From the NCBI GenBank assembly GCA_947623505.1, contig CANQGT010000001.1:62001-126000 (forward strand): a stretch of DNA of 64,000 nt, written 5' to 3'. The position numbers and the translations under genes were made by a program. Source of the DNA: an uncultured Clostridia bacterium. GTDB taxonomy: Bacteria; Bacillota; Clostridia; Oscillospirales; Acutalibacteraceae. This document shows positions 26,736-33,366 of this stretch, one piece after another (the first letter of the stretch is position 1; each line of letters begins with the position of its first letter). The notes under the pieces are model-generated. The model was given only the letters and a program-made list of their open reading frames with translations, was not told the origin of the DNA and made no database searches.

Positions 26736-27248
26736 TTAGAATTTGCAGGCAACATCGGTGAAAAAGTAGCTTAATGTATCTACGGAATCGCCCTTATCAA
26801 AAAGCGCTTTAAATTCTTCGGCGGTGACCCACCTTGTTGTTTTGACTTCGGCGGACAAAGCGTTTTTTAAATTTACCTCGCCGTCATATTCAAAGAGCCA
26901 CACATCCACAATATCGTTAAACGGCTTGCCGTCCACGGTTTTTCGTACACGCGAAAACAGCAATTTTCCGCTTTCGGGCGAAAGATCTATTCCGACCTCC
27001 TCCTTTACTTCACGAATAGCGCCCCGAAGGCTTGTTTCACCCTTTAACACCGAGCCGCCGACGCATTCCCATTTAAGAGGGAAGGTCGGGCGGTCGGCTG
27101 CGCGCTGAGATATGAGCCATTGACCTTTTGAATTTTTTATCCATATATGGACAACAAGATGAAAAAAGCCGTCCGGTATCTTCTCGCCTCTTATATGCGT
27201 TTTGCCTGTCGACTCGCGGTTTTCTGTATATAAATCCCAAAGCTCCAT
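26736..27248 (-). CDS. Nudix hydrolase
   Basis: 170 residues. The Nudix box GX5EX7REUXEEXGU is intact: GGSVLKGETSLRGAIREV followed by KEEVGI, binding divalent metal for hydrolysis of a nucleoside diphosphate linked to another group. The N-terminal part (ELWDLYTENRESTGKTHIRG) resembles the isopentenyl-diphosphate-isomerase-like Nudix subgroup often annotated only as NUDIX domain protein. Substrate cannot be read. It lies between the terminator of the SCP2 operon and its own terminator. Confidence 0.92.
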   Translation of the reverse strand: MELWDLYTENRESTGKTHIRGEKIPDGFFHLVVHIWIKNSKGQWLISQRAADRPTFPLKWECVGGSVLKGETSLRGAIREVKEEVGIDLSPESGKLLFSRVRKTVDGKPFNDIVDVWLFEYDGEVNLKNALSAEVKTTRWVTAEEFKALFDKGDSVDTLSYFFTDVACKF

Positions 27249-27271
27249 AATAATTTTCTCCTATGAAACAA

Positions 27272-27296
27272 CAAAGCGAGGAATGACCTCGCTTTG
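27272..27296 (-). terminator. Terminator of the SCP2-aminotransferase-transketolase operon
   Basis: Perfect 10-bp stem CAAAGCGAGG/CCTCGCTTTG with a 5-base loop, extended by GAAAC/GTTTC flanks; it lies 20 bp after the stop at 27316. The T run is interrupted by Gs. Confidence 0.65.
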
Positions 27297-27315
27297 TATG
27301 TTTCCGTATCTTTGT

Positions 27316-28113
27316 TTATTTTGCGAGCGCTCCGACGGTCATCATATAATCGCCTATCTGGACTCCGAATTCGGGGCCGCCCTCCATTATAAGCTGCTGA
27401 TCCGCCGTCATTTGGAACATATCGCCCGTGCCGAGCAGGATTTTAAGTGCGGAGGTGGGGCAATCGAATTTCATATTGAAAAACGGCTTTGCCCTTTTGT
27501 ATTCTCCCCTGCCCGCGCGGGATTTGCCCGCCTTGACGCGGATATACGCGGTGCATTCGGGGTGGCCTACTACCTCCCACTGATAGCAGCGGTCGGGAGA
27601 TTTGAGAGCCCATTCGTGAATTGCCGGATGCCCGAGCTTATTAAGCTGGCTTATTCCGCTTGAAAGCAGATAGAAATAAAGCTTGCAAAGCAAAACGGAG
27701 GTAAATTCATCGTTTTCGGGCGGTTCGGGAATATTGAGCAGGCTGCTCATTTTAAGCAGCACCATCATAAATTTTATAAATTTAGGCAGCGATTTTATCT
27801 TCATTTTCGGGAGCTTTGCCATATTGCCCTTCATAAAGGCGTTCATTCTTTCCATAGAGGAAAATTCAAGCTCCCCGTCTATTTTTTTATCGCCCTGATA
27901 TTCGCCCAGCTTAACGGACCACTCGCCGTTTTCAACGATAAAATGAACGGCCTCTTTCGGCTGCCCCTCTACCAAAGCCGAAACCTGATACACGGCGTCA
28001 ACGCCCTCAAACTTTTTCGCAAGCTCGGGAACGTCCGTGGCTATGGTTTTAAGAAGCGGCAGCGCGCCCGCCATAAACACTTTGTTGGCAAATCGTGTTT
28101 CGTCACTTGACAT
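27316..28113 (-). CDS. Double SCP2-like (sterol carrier) domain protein, last gene of the operon
   Basis: 265 residues. Two halves each look like an SCP2-type hydrophobic-ligand-binding module: about 40-125 (VHFIVENGEWSVKLGEY, then ELEFSSMERMNAFMKGN) and about 170-260 (AYIRVKAGK, then MKFDCPTSALKILLGTGDM). They are joined by a methionine- and leucine-rich helical linker. No signal peptide, so probably cytoplasmic. The last gene of the five-gene operon whose first gene is a second protein of the same design, which suggests the two handle a hydrophobic substrate or product of the enzymes between them. SCP2 assignment is from pattern only. Confidence 0.6.
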   Translation of the reverse strand: MSSDETRFANKVFMAGALPLLKTIATDVPELAKKFEGVDAVYQVSALVEGQPKEAVHFIVENGEWSVKLGEYQGDKKIDGELEFSSMERMNAFMKGNMAKLPKMKIKSLPKFIKFMMVLLKMSSLLNIPEPPENDEFTSVLLCKLYFYLLSSGISQLNKLGHPAIHEWALKSPDRCYQWEVVGHPECTAYIRVKAGKSRAGRGEYKRAKPFFNMKFDCPTSALKILLGTGDMFQMTADQQLIMEGGPEFGVQIGDYMMTVGALAK

Positions 28114-28157
28114 AGTAACACTGTCCTTTCATAAAATTATCCGTGAAAACGGGGATA

Positions 28158-29168
28158 TTAAAATTCATCGTCCCACGCGTCGTCCGCCTCAAAATCGGCG
28201 TGCATCATTTCCTGTATAGTCTCGGCAATTCCGTTGGCGTCTATCTTCGCGAGAGCGAGCAGATCCTCCTGAAGTCCGATAGTGGAAAACGCGTTTTGAT
28301 GGCCGAGAGTTTTAAAGGCGCATGCTTTACCGGATTTTGCGACTACCTCCGCAACGGCGGAGCCGAGACCGCCCATAACCTCGTGATCCTCAACGGTGAT
28401 TATGCGGCGCGTATCCATAACGGCGCTGAGTATAGCCTCCTCGTCTATCGGCTTTATGGTGTGCATATTTATAACTCTCGCCTTTATGCCGCCGTCCGCC
28501 TCAACCATACGCGCGGCCTGCATAGCCTCGAAAACGCAGGAGCCGCAGGCGATAACGGTTATATCTGTGCCGTCGTTCATAAGGGTGGATTTATTCCACT
28601 CGAATTTGCAGTCCTCCACGTTTTTGTAAATAACCTGATCGAAGCCTCTGTTTATACGGATATAAACGGGGCCTTCTATATCGTAAGCCGCCTTAACGGC
28701 GTGATAAGTCTCCGCTCCGTCGCACGGGCAGATGACCGTCATATTCGGCAGACTTCTCATACAGGCCATATCGATAAGCGAATGATGTGTGGAACCCGCC
28801 TGACCGAAAGAGGTGCCGGCGTGGGTGGCTATAATCTTTACGGGGATATTCTGATAGCATATATCGGTGTGTATCTGATCAAGCGAACGGGCGGCGGCGA
28901 ATATCGCGAAAGTGGAAGTGAAAGGAATAAGTCCGTTTTTCGCGAGTCCTGCCGAAACGCCGAAAAGGTTCTGCTCGGCAATGCCGACGTTGAAAAAGCG
29001 CTCGGGGAATTTTTCTCCGAACATACCTATTTTTGTTGATTTTGCAAGATCGGCCGTAAGGGCGACAACGTCGCCGTGTTCCTCGCCGAGCTCGCAAAGG
29101 GCGATACCGTAACACTCAGCAGTTGAAAGCTTGGTGGTATCCGTCATAGTATAAGTCATTCCGCCCAT
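28158..29168 (-). CDS. Transketolase, C-terminal subunit (split form)
   Basis: 336 residues covering the pyrimidine-binding and C-terminal transketolase domains. The activating glutamate is in FFNVGIAEQNLFGVSAGLA; AGTSFGQAGSTHHSLIDMA and RINRGFDQ are also typical. GGAGGCGTAAGCT precedes the ATG. It is 3 bp after the N-terminal subunit gene and must pair with it to bind thiamine diphosphate. Split transketolases occur both in the pentose phosphate pathway and in dedicated sugar pathways; the neighbours here argue for a dedicated role. Confidence 0.92.
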   Translation of the reverse strand: MGGMTYTMTDTTKLSTAECYGIALCELGEEHGDVVALTADLAKSTKIGMFGEKFPERFFNVGIAEQNLFGVSAGLAKNGLIPFTSTFAIFAAARSLDQIHTDICYQNIPVKIIATHAGTSFGQAGSTHHSLIDMACMRSLPNMTVICPCDGAETYHAVKAAYDIEGPVYIRINRGFDQVIYKNVEDCKFEWNKSTLMNDGTDITVIACGSCVFEAMQAARMVEADGGIKARVINMHTIKPIDEEAILSAVMDTRRIITVEDHEVMGGLGSAVAEVVAKSGKACAFKTLGHQNAFSTIGLQEDLLALAKIDANGIAETIQEMMHADFEADDAWDDEF

Positions 29169-29171
29169 AGC

Positions 29172-30065
29172 TTACGCCTCCTTTTCCGCGCGCTCGCAAC
29201 GCGTCTTATAATATTTGTCAAGGGAATCATAGGCCTGCTGCACCATAGCGTCATCAAGCGAACCGTAGTGCCAAAGATAATTATCCTCCATAAAATCTAC
29301 GCCCGCGCCCTTGAATGTGTCCATAATCACGGCGGTAGGCTTGTCTCCGCCGTCCTGATGATTTTTGATGGCCGCTTCAATCGCATTGTTGAGCTCTTTG
29401 AAATTGTGCCCGTCAACGCGCATAACGTTGAAGCCGAACGCCTCAAACTTTTTGTCCACGGGCTCGATGCTCATCTCGTCGTTTACTCTGCCGTCTATCA
29501 TACATTTGTTATTATCGACAAAAACAACTACGTTTGAGAGTTTAAATTGCGCGGCGCTCATAGCCGCCTCCCAGTTTGAGCCCTCGTTGAGCTCGCCGTC
29601 GCCCGTTACAACGTAGTTCATATAGTCGATACCATTTACTCTTCCGGCAAGGGCAAAGCCGACGGCAAGAGAAATGCCGTGACCGAGAGAACCCGTTGAG
29701 CAGTCAACGCCGTTTACCTTGTTGCAGTCAAGGTGCATTCCGATTTTCGCGCCCGTGAGGTTGAAAATGTGCAGTTCCTCCTCCGGCATAAAGCCGTAGT
29801 CAACGAGAACGGGGGCGTAGCCGACCGCCGCGTGACCTTTTGAGAGAACAAAGCGGTCTCTGTCCTCCATTTTGGAGTTATTGACGTCCAGCTTCATAAA
29901 GCGGTGGTAAAGTATCGTCATAACGTCCATTGCGCTCATGGCGCCGCCCAGATGGCCCGAGCCGCCCCACACCGCCGTTTTGATGGTGAGGCGTCGTAAC
30001 TCATCGGCCTTTTTCTCAAGGCGGAGCCATTCCTCTTTATCAAACGGCTTGTAATTTGCAGGCAT
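29172..30065 (-). CDS. Transketolase, N-terminal subunit (split form)
   Basis: 297 residues holding the thiamine-diphosphate-binding domain: GGSGHLGGAMSAMDVMTILY at about 35-54, SKGHAAVGYAPVL, and the GDG...NN diphosphate motif from GDGELNEGSNWEAAM to VVVFVDNN. It lies between the class III aminotransferase (24 bp upstream) and the C-terminal transketolase subunit (3 bp downstream). Together they would move a two-carbon ketol unit between sugars; donor and acceptor are not evident. Confidence 0.92.
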   Translation of the reverse strand: MPANYKPFDKEEWLRLEKKADELRRLTIKTAVWGGSGHLGGAMSAMDVMTILYHRFMKLDVNNSKMEDRDRFVLSKGHAAVGYAPVLVDYGFMPEEELHIFNLTGAKIGMHLDCNKVNGVDCSTGSLGHGISLAVGFALAGRVNGIDYMNYVVTGDGELNEGSNWEAAMSAAQFKLSNVVVFVDNNKCMIDGRVNDEMSIEPVDKKFEAFGFNVMRVDGHNFKELNNAIEAAIKNHQDGGDKPTAVIMDTFKGAGVDFMEDNYLWHYGSLDDAMVQQAYDSLDKYYKTRCERAEKEA

Positions 30066-30089
30066 AAATTTTTCCTCCTTAAAAATTAT

Positions 30090-31370
30090 TTATTTTATCG
30101 GCGAAAGGTCGAGTTCGGGATGTTTCGCCTGAACCGCTCCGAACGCGTCCTCCGCTATATCTATCGCAAGCCTTATATCATCATCGGTTATTGAAGCGTT
30201 TATAAAATGATTATGGTGCGACGCAAGGAAAAGCCCCCTTGAAACGCATTCCGCTATCCATTCCTGGTGGAGCATAAGGCTGTCGTCATTTGCTATTCGC
30301 AGATAGAACAGCGCCGGCTCGCCTGAAACAACAAGATTAAATCCGTGCTCCTTTCCGGCGGCAACGAAACCTTCGGTGATTTGCGTGCCGATTCTGCGGA
30401 ACATATTGGGAATATCCAGCTTTTTCATTTTCGGTATGCAGGCGAGGCACGCCGCGAAAGGCTCGGCGCTCATCCAATAAGAACCCGTGTAAGTTACGGA
30501 CGACGCTGTGGCTTTCATATGCTCGCCGCCGCAAAGAGCGGACATATTGTAGCCGTTTGCGAGCGCCTTACAGAAGCATATAAGATCCGCCTTTATTCCG
30601 TAATAGTGGTCGGAGCCGGCGATATCAAGGCGAAAGCCGGTGCGAACGTCGTCAAAAATAAGTACAATGCCCTTTTCATCGCAGAATTTGCGCACGGCCT
30701 GCCAATATTCCTTGTTCGCGACTTCGTTATCCTTAAAATTGCCGTGGTCGTAAGGCTGGGCGATTAGTCCTGCAACGTCTCCGCCGCATTCGTCGTAAGC
30801 CCTTTGCAAAGCGTCAAGATCAAACCATGGAACAACGACGTTGTTTTGCACTTCCTCGGGGAGAATGCCCGGATAATCGAGCTTCTGAGCCCACTGAAAA
30901 TCGCCGTGATAGTATCCCTGAAGGAAGAATATCTTTTTCTTGCCCGTATGCGCTCTTGCTATCATAACGGAAAAGGTGGTGGCGTCCGAACCGTTTTTCA
31001 TAAAGAACGCCCAGTCGGCGCTGGCAACGGTATCTTTGAGCAGTTCGGCGCATTCAACCATTTTATAAGACGGAGAAGTGGTGCAGTTGCCGATTTTAAG
31101 CTGAGCTATCGCCGCCGCGTCCACGTCGTCGTCACAATAGCCGAGAACGTTCGGGCCGTATGCGCACATAAGATCAAGATACTTATTTCCGTCCACATCC
31201 CAAAAATAGGTTCCCTTGGCGTGATCGCTCATAAGCGGCCATTTTGTTATCGGAAGAAACAGACCCTCGCTCGGGCCGAGATGCCCGTAAACACCGGAGG
31301 GTATGGCGTTCAGCGCCCTGTTGAACCATTCCTGGCTTTTTTCGTGTTTATATTCGGGATATTTACTCAT
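30090..31370 (-). CDS. Class III PLP aminotransferase, glutamate-1-semialdehyde aminomutase-like
   Basis: 426 residues from the ATG at 31370-31368 (AGGAG eight bases upstream; an in-frame TTG two codons earlier is less well placed). Fold-type I features: DVDGNKYLDLMCAYGPNVLGY near the start, FMKNGSDATTFSVMIARAHTGKK, the aspartate segment VLIFDDVRTGFR, and the PLP lysine in FCKALANGYNMSA. The NGSDAT segment is typical of the HemL-type subgroup, but there are no heme genes nearby and the operon context points to amination of a sugar-derived ketone or aldehyde. Exact substrate unknown. Confidence 0.85.
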   Translation of the reverse strand: MSKYPEYKHEKSQEWFNRALNAIPSGVYGHLGPSEGLFLPITKWPLMSDHAKGTYFWDVDGNKYLDLMCAYGPNVLGYCDDDVDAAAIAQLKIGNCTTSPSYKMVECAELLKDTVASADWAFFMKNGSDATTFSVMIARAHTGKKKIFFLQGYYHGDFQWAQKLDYPGILPEEVQNNVVVPWFDLDALQRAYDECGGDVAGLIAQPYDHGNFKDNEVANKEYWQAVRKFCDEKGIVLIFDDVRTGFRLDIAGSDHYYGIKADLICFCKALANGYNMSALCGGEHMKATASSVTYTGSYWMSAEPFAACLACIPKMKKLDIPNMFRRIGTQITEGFVAAGKEHGFNLVVSGEPALFYLRIANDDSLMLHQEWIAECVSRGLFLASHHNHFINASITDDDIRLAIDIAEDAFGAVQAKHPELDLSPIK

Positions 31371-31405
31371 AATCAACTCTCCTAATCTGTAATTTATCCG
31401 TGTTG

Positions 31406-32170
31406 TCAGCCGAGATAAGCGGCTACCCTGTCAAGTATGCGGTTGAGATTATCCACCATTGAGATCATACCGGCCATATAGATATTGCCCTTGCAAAGCT
31501 CCGCAATAGTGGAGACAGAGCCGGTAAAGAGGCCGTAAGCAAGGTCTATATCCGCAAATTCCATAACGGCGCGCGGATTTTCGGGCTTTGATTTTGTCGT
31601 TTTAAAAACGTGATCTTTAACGGATATTGTGGCATAGCAGGTGTTTTTTATACCCATCGAAACATCGCCGTCAACGGTGCTTGACGCGGTAAACATAGAA
31701 ACGGAATCGGAATTCGCGAGCGCCGATATTGCCCCCGCTATCGTGTAGAACGTGAGCACGGTGGACTCCTCGAAAAACGCCCTATCTTTTAGATCTTCCT
31801 CGCTCGGACGCAACAGCTTTGTCATTCTGTCCGTCAGCTTAGTAAAGGGGCCGAGCAGGAATGTGAGCACCTGCACCATACCCTTGGACGGCATACCGGG
31901 TTTGGAATCGTCGATAAGCGCGTTGAATTTGGCCGGAGTAGCGAAATTCATCTTGCAGGTGCAACCGTCCGCGCCCTCGGTCATTTTACATCCGTCTTTC
32001 GTAAAATGAAATGTTGCGCAAGGACCGTTTGTAACGTCGAAACACAGGGAGACAGGCTTTTTGAGCGTTTTAAGAATCTCTTTCGCCTCGCCGTCGATCT
32101 CGCAAAGATTTTCGAGAGTGGCAAGCACGCCGTACATATTCACATATGCCATTGCTTTTGCTTCTTTCAA
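31406..32170 (-). CDS. Double SCP2-like domain protein, first gene of the operon
   Basis: 254 residues from a TTG start at 32170, seven bases after AGGAGG; a later ATG (codon 7) is less well placed. Two SCP2-like halves: about 40-95 (ATFHFTKDGCKMTEG, MNFATPAKFNALIDDSKPG) and about 160-250 (ATISVKDHVFKTTKS, AVMEFADIDLAYGLFTGSVS). Cysteine-rich in the first half (CKMTEGADGCTCKM). Related in design to the protein at 27316, the two bracketing an aminotransferase and a split transketolase. Probably a hydrophobic-ligand-binding or protein-interaction component. Confidence 0.6.
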   Translation of the reverse strand: MKEAKAMAYVNMYGVLATLENLCEIDGEAKEILKTLKKPVSLCFDVTNGPCATFHFTKDGCKMTEGADGCTCKMNFATPAKFNALIDDSKPGMPSKGMVQVLTFLLGPFTKLTDRMTKLLRPSEEDLKDRAFFEESTVLTFYTIAGAISALANSDSVSMFTASSTVDGDVSMGIKNTCYATISVKDHVFKTTKSKPENPRAVMEFADIDLAYGLFTGSVSTIAELCKGNIYMAGMISMVDNLNRILDRVAAYLG

Positions 32171-32226
32171 ATTTATTCCTCCTTTTAGTAAACGGTAAGA
32201 ATTAAAACAACTTATATATATGAAAA

Positions 32227-32256
32227 ATTATATCATATTTTTGCCTTCGCTTTCAA
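32227..32256 (-). promoter_or_regulatory. Promoter of the SCP2-aminotransferase-transketolase operon
   Basis: TTGAAA (32256-32251), 18-base spacer, TATAAT (32232-32227) on the minus strand, giving a leader of roughly 50 bases. Confidence 0.7.
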
Positions 32257-32307
32257 TAATTAAGAGCGCCAAAAAAAGGGAATGATTTTAGTCATAATAA
32301 ACAAAGC

Positions 32308-32335
32308 GCCGCCCCGATAATGAAATCGAAACGGC
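32308..32335 (-). terminator. Terminator after trpS
   Basis: 11-bp stem (GCCGTTTCGAT with ATCGGGGCGGC, three G-U pairs), 6-base loop, then GCTTTGTTTATT on the minus strand. Confidence 0.65.
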
Positions 32336-32358
32336 ATATTAAATAAAATTATAGCGAA

Positions 32359-33366
32359 TCAGATAACAAATCCTACCTTTTTCATAACCTTGCTGAGAGT
32401 TCTTGCCGCAATTCGCGAAGCCTTTTCCGCCCCTGCCTTTTCACATTCCGTAAGATAAGCCTTATCGGCAAGAATGCGCTTGTATTCCGCCTGAACGGGT
32501 CTCAGTTCCTCAACAACGGCCTCTCCCACGGCCTTTTTGAAATCGCCGTAGCCTTTGCCTGAAAAATCGGCCTCTATCTGTTCAAAGCTCTTTTTTGTGA
32601 CGGCGGAATAAATAGTCATCAGATTATTTATACCGTCCTTGCCCTCGCCGAAACGAACGCAGGTCTCGCTGTCCGTAACGGCGGATTTAAATTTGTTCAT
32701 AATTACGTTCGGCTCGTCGTTGAGCATTACCGTCGCCCTCGGATTAAGATCCGATTTGCTCATTTTCTTTTTCGGATCGGCAAGGCTCATTACCCTTGCG
32801 CCGAATTTCGGAATAAACGGTTCGGGAAGCGTAAAAACGTCGCCGTAAATACCGTTGAAGCGTTTCGCAATATCTCGGCAAAGCTCAACGTGCTGTTTCT
32901 GATCGTCGCCAACAGGCACCACGTCCGCCTGATAGATAAGAATATCGGCCGCCATAAGGCAGGGGTAAGTAAAGAGGCCTGCGTTGATATTATCGCTGTG
33001 CTGAGCCGATTTATCCTTAAACTGCGTCATACGCCCGAGCTCGCCGAATTGGGAATAGCAGTTGAGTATCCACGCAAGCTGGGAATGAGCCGGCACCTGC
33101 GACTGAATAAACACAACGCCGCGCTGAGGGTCGATACCGAGCGCGAGGAGCATAGCGAACATCTCGTGCGTACGCTGCCTGAGCTTTGCGGGCTCCTGCC
33201 TTACGGTTATTGAATGTAGATCGGCAACACCGTAAACCGTGTCGTACTCGCCCTGAAACGACGGCCAGCTTTTAAGAGCCCCAAGATAATTGCCGAGCGT
33301 CGGAACCGAAGTCGGCTGTATGAACGACAGGCTCCTCTTTTTGTTCTCTGTTTTCATTTCTTCCAT
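32359..33366 (-). CDS. trpS: Tryptophanyl-tRNA synthetase
   Basis: Class I synthetase, 335 residues, charging tRNA-Trp. The HIGH-equivalent PTLGNYLGAL is near residues 22-31 and KMSKS is in DPKKKMSKSDLN near 205. LHSITVRQ and the DILIYQADVVPVGDDQKQH segment bind tryptophan and ATP. GAGGTAAATATT precedes the ATG. It follows an aminotransferase gene by 10 bp; no T-box-like leader is visible there. Confidence 0.97.
   Translation of the reverse strand: MEEMKTENKKRSLSFIQPTSVPTLGNYLGALKSWPSFQGEYDTVYGVADLHSITVRQEPAKLRQRTHEMFAMLLALGIDPQRGVVFIQSQVPAHSQLAWILNCYSQFGELGRMTQFKDKSAQHSDNINAGLFTYPCLMAADILIYQADVVPVGDDQKQHVELCRDIAKRFNGIYGDVFTLPEPFIPKFGARVMSLADPKKKMSKSDLNPRATVMLNDEPNVIMNKFKSAVTDSETCVRFGEGKDGINNLMTIYSAVTKKSFEQIEADFSGKGYGDFKKAVGEAVVEELRPVQAEYKRILADKAYLTECEKAGAEKASRIAARTLSKVMKKVGFVI

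Follow-up and report, generated by a model that had tools for sequence, protein, structure and literature searches.

A conserved five-gene operon of gut Clostridia pairs a class III aminotransferase and an altered split transketolase each with its own predicted SCP2-like protein

Here we describe a five-gene operon in a 64,000-nucleotide stretch of DNA (the window; contig CANQGT010000001.1, positions 62,001-126,000) from an uncultured Clostridia bacterium of the family Acutalibacteraceae (GCA_947623505.1), in which an aminotransferase and a split transketolase are each accompanied by a predicted SCP2-like protein. Positions below are those of the window. Five open reading frames follow one another on the minus strand in the order SCPa, AT, TKa, TKb and SCPb, separated by 29, 24, 3 and 44 bases. 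SCPa (31406..32170, 254 residues) is a tandem SCP2-like protein and the partner of AT; it starts with a TTG at 32170, and its conserved region runs from the methionine at 32152. AT (30090..31376, 428 residues) is a class III pyridoxal phosphate-dependent aminotransferase, TKa (29172..30065, 297 residues) and TKb (28158..29168, 336 residues) are the thiamine diphosphate (ThDP)-binding N-terminal half and the C-terminal half of a split transketolase, and SCPb (27316..28113, 265 residues) is a second tandem SCP2-like protein, the partner of the transketolase. The candidate operon promoter, a putative sigma-70-type element (32227..32256, minus strand; TTGAAA-N18-TATAAT, with TG before the second hexamer), is the strongest among 11 promoter-like sites in 27200-32400, and a putative intrinsic terminator, an 11-pair hairpin at 27271..27297 on the same strand, lies 3' of SCPb; both are assigned by consensus match only. 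The operon's neighbors are trpS upstream and a NUDIX gene downstream. An earlier sequence-only reading of this DNA had described five same-strand genes with short gaps, a promoter and a terminator, including a two-subunit transketolase. The open reading frames and consensus matches confirm that layout, and Pfam domains show that TKa and TKb jointly constitute one transketolase.

The expectation that this gene order would be kept in relatives was borne out. A scan of genome contigs for AT gave 294 loci, and our locus counts refer to the best 80 of these 294; in GC-rich or overlapping loci, the presence of TKb and SCPb was scored by six-frame profile scan. All five genes stand in order at 65 of the 80 loci. 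Nine of the remaining 15 are cut on the right by a contig end, one is cut on the left, and five extend at least 5 kb to the right with no transketolase. The gene immediately upstream of AT is SCPa in 79 of the 80, the exception being cut by a contig end. Within the window's family, SCPa occurs in 48 of 200 genomes, AT adjoins it in 30 of 30 SCPa loci among the matches listed, and operon-type TKb (E up to 1e-95) is present in 45 of the 48 SCPa-positive genomes (all except G077, G188 and G198) and in none of the 152 SCPa-negative ones. AT is rarer outside the family, being found in two of 390 other genomes of a class sample (E up to 1e-80), both with an adjoining SCPa. SCPa was found in six of 397 other genomes of a phylum sample, in which the full five-gene order is seen at L127, L130 and L131, four genes run up to the contig end at L129, the modules lie apart at L128/L147, and SCPa-AT alone occurs at L126. 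The order is also kept in two distant families. Median identity to the window protein is 87.9% for AT and 90.5% for TKb versus 73.1% for TrpS, and AT is closer to the window's protein than TrpS is in 19 of the 19 loci that hold trpS.

Named carriers come from gut, rumen and faeces, for example Eubacterium coprostanoligenes ATCC 51222 (L060); a role in sterol reduction, prompted by this species, was dropped because neither enzyme fits it. No conserved sixth gene was found at the 80 loci, the next commonest clusters being a class I/II-type aminotransferase (21 loci), TrpS (20) and a glycerophosphotransferase-like protein (15). In the window itself, two adjoining genes of the CDP-glycerol glycerophosphotransferase family (PF04464; 34565-36887, minus strand) likely serve the synthesis of a cell-wall or teichoic-acid-like polymer. 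Two genomes of family f96 carry a gene for a MurT-like Mur ligase upstream of SCPa (L127 4624-6051, by Pfam; L129 6434-7870, by likeness).

The conserved unit is composed of two modules, SCPa-AT and TKa-TKb-SCPb. We searched for SCPb in twelve genomes, mostly ones with SCPa-AT and no transketolase, with L060 as a full-operon control, and found it in seven, the control included. In the other six (G022, G740, G969, G970, G973 and G975) SCPb lies on a different contig from SCPa-AT, and in all six TKa and TKb adjoin it. Among the twelve genomes searched, SCPb was not found in G797, G967, G968, G971 and G972, whose best TKb matches are at 43-44% or lower, compared with at least 56% for module transketolases. 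The six genomes with separate modules indicate that either enzyme keeps company with an SCP2 protein of its own, and the five without SCPb indicate that SCPa-AT can stand alone; these five and the three SCPa-positive family genomes that lack operon-type transketolase show that AT is usable without it. The SCP2 proteins do flank the unit, as the sequence-only reading had it, but its picture of two proteins bracketing a single pathway gives way to two separable modules with one SCP2 protein per enzyme. We regard this paired-module architecture, together with the altered transketolase described below, as firm. Separately, proton-translocating transhydrogenase genes (AlaDh_PNT and PNTB, the latter tested in L128 only) stand divergently beside SCPa-AT at L128 4917-7841, and transhydrogenase genes also stand divergently beside the transketolase-SCPb module at L146 2827-6479.

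Neither SCPa nor SCPb matches any Pfam family at E up to 1, and so neither matches the SCP2 profile PF02036; a search of NCBIfam gave nothing significant for the two (one insignificant match, E 0.078). Among their homologues, and at E up to 5, PF02036 is matched by 11 of 46 for SCPa (best E 4.2e-5) and by two of 19 for SCPb (best E 0.002), and four of the 46 SCPa relatives touch Alkyl_sulf_C (best E 0.093). Profiles of the two proteins run against PDB sequences returned chance-level matches and no SCP2 chain, so that structure comparison was required. AlphaFold models are confident, with a mean predicted local distance difference test score of 92.2 for SCPa and 90.1 for SCPb, and solved SCP2 folds align to both halves of SCPa and to the C-terminal half of SCPb. 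These folds include sterol carrier proteins, UbiJ and the alkylsulfatase SdsA1, as well as the ligand-bound structures 1pz4 (C16 fatty acid) and 2cfz (dodecanol). The N-terminal half of SCPb is SCP2-like by internal repetition and hhalign only, and the absence of a separate SCP2 chain on it from the structure-comparison table is not evidence against this assignment; SCPa aligns to SCPb over both modules in hhalign. Both flanking proteins are therefore, in their predicted structures, tandem SCP2-like modules, as had been suggested earlier and although the PF02036 profile itself goes unmatched. They are predicted to bind lipids, and their ligand is presumably hydrophobic.

AT belongs to the class III aminotransferase family (PF00202). 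Its closest PDB relative is the aminopentol aminotransferase 6hbs (276 bits, E 4.4e-81, query 17-426), which from its molecule name we take to be FumI of Sphingopyxis sp. MTA144, and HemL-type chains trail at 154 bits or less (3bs8, 154). The enzyme had previously been called HemL-like; with 173.9 bits against a cut-off of 527.3 for glutamate-1-semialdehyde aminomutase (HemL, TIGR00713), that assignment was rejected, as was one to the guanitoxin transaminase GntE (NF041362, 202.6 bits against a cut-off of 525). According to extracts of a published account, FumI deaminates hydrolysed fumonisin B1, a long-chain C20 2-amino-3,5,10,14,15-pentol, at C2, with pyruvate receiving the amino group (PMC2933618). 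By analogy with this sphingoid-like substrate, we predict that AT acts on a long-chain 2-amino-alcohol, with pyruvate as the probable amino acceptor. Distant AT relatives on plasmids (15 records at 30-38.5% identity, six of them inspected) are adjoined by ABC importer genes in loci H2, H4 and H10 and by a substrate-binding protein in H5, have class II aldolase and kinase genes nearby in H1 and H5, and occupy a different gene setting in the Streptomyces plasmid H13; none of the six inspected has an SCP2 partner or a split transketolase beside it. In the distant Bacillota genome G797, SCPa and AT are immediately preceded on the same strand by a gene for an amino-acid/amine-type permease; Pfam places this neighbor of SCPa (L126) in an amino-acid permease family.

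For both transketolase subunits, the best PDB match is the split transketolase of Carboxydothermus hydrogenoformans (6yaj, 6yak). We aligned the active sites of 68 enzymes of the family, the window's included, in E. coli TktA numbering, along with nine distant module transketolases. His26, His66, His100, Asp155, Glu160, Asn185, Glu411 and Phe434 are identical in all 68; His261 falls in an alignment gap in all split transketolases, an ordinary control enzyme included, and was not scored. Asp469 is replaced by alanine in 68 of 68, and Arg358 by alanine in 59 and serine in nine, the window's TKb carrying alanine at both positions. In the nine distant enzymes the Asp469 position holds alanine in eight and serine in one, and Arg358 is kept in two (L146 and L147). 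Asp469 reads the alpha-hydroxyl of the acceptor and Arg358 contacts its phosphate. The control, an ordinary split transketolase of the window's own genome, keeps both residues. That genome holds three Transket_pyr genes, those of the operon transketolase, of this ordinary enzyme (C6) and of a 617-residue DXS-like protein (C5), so the operon's is not its only transketolase, a point on which the earlier interpretation depended. A wider control took in 22 transketolase/DXS loci, the motif being readable in 20: the four SCPb-linked enzymes have alanine, serine, alanine and alanine, and the 16 without an SCPb link have aspartate in 13 and not in three (L157, L162 and L170). These three, which read GPLG, GTGG and GPLG, are atypical split-type transketolases that lack the usual aspartate and have no SCPb link.

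Extracts of a study of E. coli transketolase describe a series of variants, D469T, D469T/R520Q and S385Y/D469T/R520Q, in which the accepted substrate shifts from phosphorylated to polar and non-polar aliphatic and on to aromatic aldehydes, with D469T widening the pocket (PMC5073344). The operon enzyme lacks the acceptor residues of a pentose-phosphate transketolase, Asp469 and Arg358, and its active-site sequence points to an acceptor that lacks an alpha-hydroxyl, which would make it a lipid-like aldehyde and not a ketose or polyol. Of the two parts of the earlier guess at the chemistry, a hydrophobic intermediate is supported and a ketose- or polyol-derived substrate is not. The same results bear on the most ordinary explanation of the operon, that a pentose phosphate transketolase and a HemL or general transaminase have been grouped incidentally. 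Both enzymes do come from large families, but the gene order shared by 65 of 80 loci and by two distant families, the confinement of operon-type transketolase to SCPa-positive genomes (45 of 48, versus 0 of 152), the second split transketolase with canonical residues in the window's genome, and the wide margin by which AT misses the HemL cut-off make this explanation highly improbable.

The SCP2 partners on both enzymes, combined with the loss of acceptor residues, suggest a substrate with a long aliphatic chain, such as a sphingoid-like compound. We tentatively propose that a long-chain 2-amino-1,3-diol on one side and a fatty aldehyde plus a two-carbon unit on the other are interconverted by AT and the transketolase on SCP2 carriers, with breakdown as the favored direction; this is our preferred reading, held with limited confidence, and in it we infer the substrate, the direction, the SCP2 ligand and the order of steps. 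SCPa would pick up a hydrophobic 2-amino-1,3-diol, a base of the sphingoid type, and hand it to AT. This enzyme would move the amino group from C2 onto a keto acid (probably pyruvate), yielding a 1,3-dihydroxy-2-ketone. SCPb would present this ketone to the split transketolase, where ThDP would cleave the C2-C3 bond, so that C1 and C2 come off as a glycolyl unit and a fatty aldehyde is released. The two carbons would then pass to a sugar phosphate, for example to glyceraldehyde 3-phosphate to form xylulose 5-phosphate. Run in reverse, both enzymes together could convert a fatty aldehyde into a sphingoid-type base. It is conceivable, though doubtful, that anaerobic gut Clostridia thereby possess a sphingoid-base pathway that dispenses with serine palmitoyltransferase and sphingosine-1-phosphate lyase, relies on transamination, ThDP chemistry and paired SCP2 carriers, and links host, dietary or microbial sphingolipids to sugar-phosphate metabolism.

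The distribution of other genes offers clues to direction. Matches to Ceramidase_alk occur in 39 of the 200 family genomes, in 27 of 48 SCPa-positive versus 12 of 152 SCPa-negative ones (odds ratio 15, p 1e-11, kinship ignored; mostly weak partial matches), and the contrast is also seen at genus level (20 of 32 versus 8 of 103) and above the curated cut-off (20 of 48 versus 6 of 152). A control family, GH88, is found in 18 of 48 versus 30 of 152 (odds ratio 2.4, p 0.02, kinship ignored), indicating that genes of this sort are in any case somewhat more common in SCPa-positive genomes. An acyl reductase of the LuxC type is not linked to SCPa, only two of its 12 positives among 188 genomes being SCPa-positive, and we rejected biosynthesis by way of such a reductase. 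Together, the permease context in G797, the ABC, aldolase and kinase contexts on plasmids, the co-occurrence with Ceramidase_alk and the missing LuxC link give a modest lean toward breakdown over synthesis, and deamination by AT is somewhat more likely than amination. In a separate observation, three genomes hold a small cluster in which a DegT/DnrJ/EryC1-type aminotransferase gene comes after a ceramidase-like one: L184 166-2667 (G177) and L186 7451-9925 (G027), both Pfam-tested, and L183 8423-10892 (G198), assigned from N-terminal likeness alone.

In the building direction, the transketolase would join a two-carbon ketol unit to a fatty aldehyde and AT would aminate the product, giving a sphingoid-like membrane base without serine palmitoyltransferase. 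The conservation of AT and TKb relative to TrpS is high for a peripheral function, and no transporter or catabolic gene lies in the window's operon or is conserved beside it; transketolase-transaminase pairs are, moreover, used in synthetic cascades to 2-amino-1,3-diols, which we count for this direction. We nonetheless consider it unlikely, as the operon has no acyltransferase or headgroup gene for a conserved neighbor, SCPa shows no co-occurrence with LuxC-type acyl reductase, and the contexts of distant relatives look catabolic.

Several observations weigh against our proposal of sphingoid-type base breakdown. At the 80 loci, no conserved neighbor was found for a sphingolipid headgroup, a ceramidase, an aldehyde dehydrogenase or a transporter. 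No protein of the window's own genome matches Ceramidase_alk, and in other genomes the matches are for the most part weak and partial, falling in proteins of roughly 430-640 residues (e.g. L181, L182, L184 and L187), with both ceramidase domains present in only one of five proteins scanned singly (G040, L179 4780-7680). Five genomes carry SCPa-AT with neither SCPb nor operon-type transketolase, three family genomes carry SCPa without operon-type TKb, and the loss of Asp469 is not unique to SCPb-linked transketolases, being shared by the three atypical unlinked enzymes. Canonical transketolases form 3S ketols, and the common D-erythro sphingoid bases are 3R. Finally, the operon transketolase keeps the phosphate contacts Ser385, His461 and Arg520, so a sugar phosphate may remain one of its partners.

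These retained contacts also favor a different substrate, such as a short or polar aminoketone, an amino-polyol, or a polyketide- or isoprenoid-type amine, with the SCP2 proteins acting as scaffolds or binding some other hydrophobic ligand. An SCP2-like fold does not dictate what is bound, both SCP2 proteins of the window have diverged below Pfam detection, and sugar-kinase, class II aldolase and ABC genes lie near distant AT relatives. Yet an ordinary hydroxylated, phosphorylated acceptor is difficult to reconcile with the absence of Asp469 and Arg358, and one dedicated tandem SCP2 protein per enzyme points to a hydrophobic substrate; overall, we judge a substrate of this other kind possible but rather doubtful.

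If correct, our proposal of long-chain 2-amino-1,3-diol breakdown would reveal new amino-lipid enzymology and a new role for SCP2 proteins, that of carriers dedicated to supplying soluble enzymes with substrate, and the genes would serve as markers for the turnover of sphingoid bases by gut Clostridia. Even with another substrate, a transketolase tied to a predicted lipid-binding partner is unusual. The unit is common in the window's family and occurs in many gut bacteria, and its five small soluble proteins make it directly testable.

Our literature searches found no published description of this five-gene unit or an equivalent, but its parts can be compared with known systems. AT shares the class III fold with FumI, to which it aligns over nearly its full length and far above HemL-type chains; FumI comes from another phylum, and neither an SCP2 protein nor a split transketolase adjoins the six plasmid relatives inspected. 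The C. hydrogenoformans split transketolase shares the two-chain architecture of TKa and TKb, but has the usual arginine and the aspartate of the GEDG motif where the operon enzyme has alanine, and we know of no SCP2 partner for it. UbiJ, which acts in ubiquinone synthesis, and the C-terminal domain of SdsA1 have the SCP2 fold in common with SCPa and SCPb, and by analogy SCPa and SCPb may hold a hydrophobic substrate for an enzyme; the operon differs in having two separate tandem-domain proteins that stand free, one for each enzyme. Synthetic transketolase-transaminase cascades use the same two reaction types, in the synthetic order, but are engineered and act on small aldehydes, whereas the operon is a natural gene unit with SCP2 partners. 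Sphingoid bases are made via serine palmitoyltransferase and broken down via sphingosine-1-phosphate lyase. With these routes the operon would share its predicted substrate class and a fatty aldehyde as the breakdown product, but it includes neither enzyme, and is predicted to reach that product by transamination and ThDP-dependent cleavage, with no phosphorylation.

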